A DNA stretch of 64,000 bases from Klebsiella sp. BIGb0407 (GTDB lineage Bacteria; Pseudomonadota; Gammaproteobacteria; Enterobacterales; Enterobacteriaceae), in the NCBI RefSeq assembly GCF_024807845.1, contig NZ_JANUEQ010000007.1, forward strand, positions 62,001 through 126,000. Reading direction: 5' to 3'. A model generated the notes under the pieces. The model worked only from the letters and a program-made list of their open reading frames with translations. It was not told the DNA's origin and did no database searches. The position numbers and the translations under genes are program-made. The first letter of the stretch is position 1. Every line of letters starts with the position of its first letter. Shown one piece after another: positions 2,129 to 4,709 of this stretch.

Positions 2129-2131
2129 TTG

Positions 2132-2623
2132 ATGGAAATGTCGGAACTGTCTCCGCGTCGTCCTTATCTATTAAGGGCTTTTTATGAATGGTTGCTCGAT
2201 AACGAGTTAACGCCACATGTTGTTGTGGATATCTCGTTGCCTGATGTGCAGGTTCCGCTGGAATATGCGCGTGACGGGCAAATCGTTCTGAATATCGCGC
2301 CTCGTGCAGTGGGCAATCTTCAGTTAACCAACGACTCGGTGAGTTTTAGCGCCCGTTTTGGCGGTGTTCCGCGTCAGGTCTATGTCCCTATGGCGGCGGT
2401 ACTTGCTATCTATGCACGTGAAAACGGCGCAGGAACGATGTTTGAACCGGAAGCCGGTTACGAAGAAGGCGCTGAAAGTCATAATGATGCTGACGAGCCA
2501 ACGTCAGAGCCACTGATGCAGGTTATTGATGGCGATCGTGATGACCAGGACGATTCAGATAACAATCCTGATGACGAGCCGCCGCCGCGAGGTGGTCGCC
2601 CGGCACTGCGTGTGGTGAAGTAA
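2132..2623 (+). CDS. sspB: ClpXP adaptor / stringent starvation protein B
   Basis: Encodes a 163-residue homodimeric adaptor that delivers ssrA-tagged peptides and other substrates such as RseA to the ClpXP protease. Residues 1-~110 form the substrate-binding fold (RRPYLLRAFYEWLLDN, NIAPRAVGNL, ARFGG). A long acidic linker rich in D and E follows, ending in the conserved ClpX-binding tail GGRPALRVVK. The ATG at 2132 is favoured over the TTG at 2129 because the family begins with M-D/E-x-S. The gene follows the sspA stop with a 3-base gap and is followed by a strong terminator, as expected for a two-gene operon. Confidence 0.97.
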   Translation: MEMSELSPRRPYLLRAFYEWLLDNELTPHVVVDISLPDVQVPLEYARDGQIVLNIAPRAVGNLQLTNDSVSFSARFGGVPRQVYVPMAAVLAIYARENGAGTMFEPEAGYEEGAESHNDADEPTSEPLMQVIDGDRDDQDDSDNNPDDEPPPRGGRPALRVVK

Positions 2624-2661
2624 CTGCCCCGGTAAAATCGGGTCATTCACAGGTTATTATC

Positions 2662-2703
2662 AAGGCCTGAGTTCGGTTAACGGACTCAGGCCTTTTGTTT
2701 TTG
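2662..2703 (+). terminator. Intrinsic terminator of sspAB
   Basis: An 11-bp stem (AAGGCCTGAGT at 2662-2672 with its complement at 2683-2693) is followed by TTTTGTTTTT. Confidence 0.9.
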
Positions 2704-2742
2704 TTCAGCAAGATCCGCCGTAAACCCTCGCCCCATATGAAC

Positions 2743-2812
2743 TGATACGCATCTTCAGCCGTTCCCGCCAGCCCTAAATCATCCCATTAACGAACAGACA
2801 AAGTGCGTATCA
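2743..2812. repeat. 9-bp inverted repeat upstream of the colicin/immunity remnant
   Basis: TGATACGCA (2743-2751) recurs as its exact complement TGCGTATCA (2804-2812), 52 bases away. The arms are too far apart for a simple terminator. They may be a scar of the event that removed a bacteriocin locus, or chance. Confidence 0.35.
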
Positions 2813-2891
2813 CGCCCGTTTTTTGTGATTATTTTTTAACCAAAATCACTATATTCCTGTAGCGGGGAGACACATCAAGGAGGAGGTGGAT

Positions 2892-3200
2892 ATGAGTGGT
2901 GGAGATGGAAAAAACCATAGCAGTGGGGCGCATGCAACAGGCGGGGTAAAGGGGTCATCCGGTAAGGGAGGCCCCTCTTCAGGGAAAGGTGGCTATGACG
3001 GGCATAATCTCGGCGGCCACACCAAGGATAACGGCAACGGAACGTCCACAACCACGGATATCCGTGTTACTGAACACCCAGGTGGCTCTGATCTTATTTA
3101 TTATCCTGAAGGGGATAATGATGGAAGCACTAACGCCATTATTAAAGAGATTAAAGAATGGCGAACTAAAAATGGTAAGCCAGGATTCAAAAAGGGCTAA
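2892..3200 (+). CDS. Chimeric remnant: E-type colicin N-terminus fused to C-terminal half of a colicin immunity protein
   Basis: An intact 102-codon frame. The start [14 protein letters not shown] closely follows the opening of nuclease E colicins (MSGGDGRGHNTGAH, recalled), and the next ~35 residues are the Gly/Ser-rich disordered region typical of their translocation domain. From about residue 59 the sequence switches to the second half of DNase-colicin immunity proteins of the Im2/Im9 family: [13 protein letters not shown], then a short acidic loop, then [16 protein letters not shown]. In Im9 this part holds helix III, whose Asp51, Tyr54 and Tyr55 contact the nuclease; equivalents are present. 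Helices I and II of the immunity protein and nearly all of the colicin (receptor-binding and nuclease domains) are missing. The ribosome site AAGGAGG (2878-2884) is excellent; a GTG at 2886 overlaps it and is unlikely. I infer an in-frame deletion inside a former colicin-immunity operon. Whether the product is made or does anything is unknown. Confidence 0.8.
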
Positions 3201-3243
3201 GTTTTGCTAACGGATTGCGAGGCGTTTTCAGATAACGTAGAAA

Positions 3244-3280
3244 ATGACCTGATAACCGCGTTATCAGGCCATTTTTTTTG
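3244..3280. terminator. Bidirectional terminator between the colicin remnant and gltD
   Basis: A 13-bp stem with one mismatch (3244-3256 with 3260-3272) is followed by eight T on the plus strand and preceded by an A-run that serves the minus strand, so it can end both converging transcripts. Confidence 0.85.
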
Positions 3281-3281
3281 C

Positions 3282-4709
<1,428 letters not shown>

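Follow-up and report, generated by a model that had tools for sequence, protein, structure and literature searches.

The window, a stretch of 64,000 nucleotides from Klebsiella sp. BIGb0407, contains a 102-codon open reading frame (ORF) bordered on its 5′ side by the end of a gene that we take from its protein to be sspB, and on its 3′ side by the end of an opposite-strand gene that, again named from its protein, is presumably gltD (Table 1). The ORF is composite: the first 56 codons resemble the start of a nuclease colicin, and the remaining 46 the second half of a colicin immunity protein. The first-pass annotation had described the frame and ribosome site as intact, and this holds: an ATG opens a frame of 102 amino acids that runs to a stop codon, and AAGGAGG lies directly 5′ of it. 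The same ribosome site is found at the colicin starts of a congener, the metagenome-assembled genome G003.

Table 1. Features of the sspB–gltD interval (window positions)
Feature	Position	Strand	Basis or remark
sspB, left neighbour	2129–2623	+	presumed name, from the protein
Stretch upstream of the ORF, similar to DNA upstream of the G003 colicin starts	2776–2856	+	alignment versus shuffles
Ribosome site AAGGAGG, common to the G003 colicin starts	2877–2883	+	
Fusion ORF, ATG to stop (colicin N-terminus and immunity C-terminal half)	2892–3200	+	profile, protein and DNA comparison
Colicin-derived part, codons 1–56 (OBS1-like start, Gly/Ser-rich, ending TSTTTD)	2892–3059	+	
Junction (GAT of codon 56, ATC of codon 57)	3057–3062	+	
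Immunity-derived part, codons 57–102 and stop (end of helix II, helix III with SDLIYYP, helix IV)	3059–3200	+	
Spacer and terminator hairpin (3248–3268) before gltD	3201–3275	.	continues the 3′ flank of the G003 immunity gene
gltD, right neighbour	3282–4700	−	presumed name, from the protein

Residues 57–100 match the Pfam family Colicin_Pyocin (PF01320; E 5.9e-18), scoring 65.2 bits against a curated cut-off of 21.2. The match spans profile positions 39–82 of 82, so the complete four-helix domain is not present. Searches with phmmer matched the immunity half to Im8, Im7, Im2 and Im9; among PDB entries the colicin E8 immunity protein comes closest (residues 56–102, E 9.3e-20). Residues 57–102 align with the second half of these proteins up to the last residue, including the helix III hotspot, which is given as [S/T]DLIYYP in PMC4548480 and reads SDLIYYP here. 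In contrast to the Im proteins, the ORF has no helix I and almost no helix II, and what remains is fused to a colicin N-terminus. In the G003 immunity protein, which is 85 residues long and has its modelled helix II at 29–42, the retained part starts near residue 40 and so keeps the last turn of that helix. The first-pass annotation, which had both of the first two helices gone, was thus right for helix I and slightly too sweeping for helix II. NCBIfam has no family for the whole ORF, and Pfam returned none for either half run separately (45 amino acids of the 57–102 region; residues 1–56). For annotators, a half-domain match of this strength need not mean immunity.

The first 25 residues share 96% identity with two colicin starts in G003. 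Residues 35–56 are 86.4% identical to five Edwardsiella records (E 2e-4 to 6e-4), and alignment of ORF residues 4–67 to residues 3–64 of L040, a colicin from Edwardsiella tarda, gives 57% identity (E 6.8e-7). Salmonella colicins match residues 1–16 at 93.8%, which is weak on its own (E 0.6–2; 0.6 for a Salmonella Muenchen colicin), but the DNA of the Muenchen gene aligns without gaps with window 2875–2983. As the G003 colicin is assembled only to codon 25, parent codons 26–56 are known solely from other genera. Together with the PF01320 match, these colicin-start matches confirm the fusion of a colicin N-terminus to the second half of an immunity protein that had been proposed from the DNA alone.

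Residues 1–56 resemble the first 50–60 residues, a disordered N-terminal region, of the nuclease colicins of E. tarda and Salmonella enterica. After TSTTTD the Edwardsiella colicin continues HRGSITHYGGRERPDAGWS; the colicin part in the window therefore stops at D56, short of the TolB-box-like stretch (DAGWS in Edwardsiella). Unlike these colicins, the ORF has no translocation, receptor or nuclease domain: Pfam finds neither the translocation core PF03515 nor a nuclease domain in it. The TolB box is DGTGW in ColA and DGSGW in ColE9, according to PMC2821528; there is no GW dipeptide anywhere in the ORF, and hence neither motif. In a sequence comparison with the key OBS1 residues of ColE9, two of five are identical (D5 and H9) and three are substituted, K7, S11 and A15 standing for R7, T11 and S15 (ColE9 residues from PMC8561637).

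The two parts meet at about base 3059. In alignments to relatives the colicin-like sequence ends with the GAT at 3057–3059 and the immunity-like sequence starts with T3059, leaving about one base common to both parent types, as judged from relatives rather than from the true parents. From the junction onwards, window 3059–3275 matches contig C16 of G003 (L031 4813–5029) at 86% DNA identity with no gaps; the match starts within the last G003 immunity gene, passes its stop codon and reaches the terminator that precedes gltD. Upstream of the ORF, 2776–2856 aligns with G003 contig C23 (score 71; best of 200 shuffles, 39) and 2731–2856 with contig C73 (score 54; best of 200 shuffles, 32). The 3′ flank is continuous with chromosomal DNA flanking the immunity gene in G003, which argues against a chimera formed at another site, such as a plasmid, and brought ready-made into the sspB–gltD interval. 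Plasmids often carry colicin operons, but none of the 1,074 plasmid records matching the ORF covers 80% of it, and such an insertion almost certainly did not happen. The colicin half, searched alone against plasmids, matched 13 records, none over 80% of its length.

We compared the interval across four genomes of the genus, the present one included; the sspB part was matched in all four. In G003, contig C73 carries sspB, then Gp49-like and HTH genes on the other strand, then a colicin start at the contig end. The Gp49-like/HTH pair (L034 5074–5632, −), lying between sspB and the colicin start, is toxin–antitoxin-like. Contig C16 begins within an array of nine immunity genes and runs on into gltD. 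The two contigs are not joined; from sspB on one and gltD on the other we infer that they flank one locus, with C73 ending inside the colicin gene. A second copy of the colicin start, on contig C23, probably explains the contig ends.

The other two congeners have no bacteriocin gene between sspB and gltD. G001 gave no match to the ORF and has 68 bases between the two genes. The interval of G002 is about 618 bases long and holds small ORFs with no Pfam match over the cut-off (two ORFs scanned), among them one of 99 codons (L046 682–981, −). The single ORF match of G002 lies on another contig, C3, adjoining a 597-codon frame with a DNase domain. A search for remnants of the locus in G001 and G002, by alignment with window 2717–3245, gave scores of 28–33, values that have no shuffle control of their own. 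The G002 interval seems to be a variable site, and the comparison marks sspB–gltD as variable in the genus.

Very probably, a deletion removed a bacteriocin locus between sspB and gltD and left a non-functional in-frame fusion. The first-pass annotation had read the ORF as the scar of such a deletion, an idea that would have failed had relatives carried the same 102-residue gene with no bacteriocin kin at the locus and had profile searches found neither family; PF01320 was found, the G003 locus is present in the same interval, and the two-part homology and this locus together support the scar. In the ancestor, the interval would have held a nuclease-colicin operon, possibly with an immunity-gene array. 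An illegitimate deletion whose ends had about one base in common would then have fused codon 56 of the colicin with the immunity gene nearest gltD, at about codon 40 of the latter. Lost with it would be the remainder of the toxin with its nuclease domain, the first part of the immunity gene and a lysis gene, if there was one. As the two parts met in frame, the colicin start site would now open a 102-codon frame ending at the immunity stop codon; an in-frame join has one chance in three and is no evidence of function.

The loss was presumably a single event, of about 1.7 kb on a layout like that of the Salmonella operon (L044) and of more than 4.8 kb on one like that of G003; the reconstruction draws on congeners and other genera, not on an intact ancestor from within the species. 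Such a remnant is what the decay of a locus ordinarily yields, and the system is of a known kind. Its value is as a clean example of bacteriocin locus loss: both ends survive, the junction is readable and a congener keeps the locus in the same interval. No report of such a fusion, or of a bacteriocin at sspB–gltD, was found in the titles and abstract openings of the papers listed, and one may still be in print.

Within its own genome the ORF is the only match to itself and the only PF01320 match. No PF03515, PF02402 (lysis gene) or PF21431 (colicin DNase) match was found there at E 0.1 or better. As to a cognate DNase bacteriocin, there was no PF21431 match at that threshold and no match to an E-type (Salmonella) colicin at 0.01; the genome-wide nuclease-family search covered the DNase type (PF21431), and an E3-type colicin query found only the N-terminus. 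With no other bacteriocin family match there are no assembled parent copies to misjoin. This bears on the alternative that the junction is an assembly artefact, in which two genuine genes, one for a colicin and one for an immunity protein, were joined. The assembly is a draft in 22 contigs, and repeats in bacteriocin loci do break assemblies, as in G003; but neither part has a second copy in this genome, and the junction lies within a contig, with both neighbours in place and about one base in common. We consider an artefact extremely improbable.

In the 392 genomes of the family the ORF was matched in 75, and among the matches listed the complete fusion (residues 1–102) occurs in one, its own. 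Further genome contigs gave four matching loci, none of them a fusion, and in viral contigs 17 stretches fit a pattern, none being a relative. Of 5,426 E. coli genomes, 257 matched, none over 80% of a 701-base query, and the matches listed (20 out of 269 records) fall entirely within the immunity half.

Could the fusion have become a new functional small gene, kept for weak binding of helix III to DNase colicins or of the N-terminus to porins? Its start, frame and ribosome site are intact, it retains SDLIYYP and the OBS1-like D5 and H9 (with the three substitutions given above), and it shows no accelerated change. Against this stand the missing parts. The fusion has no helix I and hardly any of helix II, and PMC4548480 places most specificity determinants in the segment that starts at loop 1 and closes with helix II. 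In Im7, according to PMC2816726, helix III docks only after an intermediate of the other three helices has formed. There is no DGSGW-like motif, and with no lysis gene the product would be expected to stay in the cytoplasm, away from porins. Among the matches listed, none of the other genomes among the 392 has the fusion. The predicted structure is disordered: in AlphaFold2 runs that used no alignment, the fusion had a single helix (residues 79–93) at pLDDT 52 and pTM 0.17, and the intact immunity protein of G003 had three at pLDDT 61.7 and pTM 0.45, a weak contrast as both models are of low confidence.

The bulk of the specificity contacts and of the fold is missing, as are the TolB box and a release gene, and the sequence does not support residual binding to foreign DNases or to Tol or porins, which the first-pass annotation had thought conceivable. 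A functional gene is rated highly unlikely. Extremely doubtful, too, is its more specific version, a deletion-born chimeric immunity peptide made from the strong colicin start, with helix III weakly catching DNase colicins. To return to the deletion scar, any product made from it is probably disordered and inactive, and we take the fusion to lack function.

Neither half shows accelerated change or decay, a point against a dead scar. Over the 46 immunity codons there are 10 synonymous and 5 non-synonymous differences from G003, and G003 differs from Salmonella in the immunity part by 9 and 5; the first 25 codons differ from G003 by 8 synonymous changes and 1 non-synonymous change. The intact sequence (start, ribosome site, frame and stop) would fit either a recent deletion or some constraint, the codons being too few to separate the two.

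We also scanned for regulatory sites, using what we take to be the LexA box consensus. No box with 0–1 mismatch lies at 2601–2900 of the window, where one site with two mismatches compares with about 1.2 expected by shuffling; nor is there a box with 0–1 mismatch upstream of the two G003 colicin starts (L034 5301–6030; L033 5471–6030). Unlike these colicin starts of the genus, plasmid colicin operons of Salmonella (one) and Edwardsiella (two) do have LexA boxes. No sigma-70-like promoter was found in 2600–3300 (shuffles, 1.0).

The G003 array combines five Colicin_Pyocin genes with four Cloacin_immun genes, one of the latter truncated (69 of the 80 profile positions); several of the nine follow the 3′ tails of nuclease domains, either E3-type or HNH. 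The array is reminiscent of the immunity arrays left by toxin displacement in the type VI secretion system (T6SS) of Vibrio cholerae, as described in PMC5361080, in being a row of immunity genes behind truncated toxin tails. It differs in belonging to a colicin locus rather than a T6SS, and the window keeps half of one immunity gene. The array (L031 1–4954) seems to document how toxins displaced one another in turn at a colicin locus on the chromosome. The same G003 locus holds another in-frame fusion, of a Lysis_col part to a Cloacin_immun gene, at L031 2503–2874.
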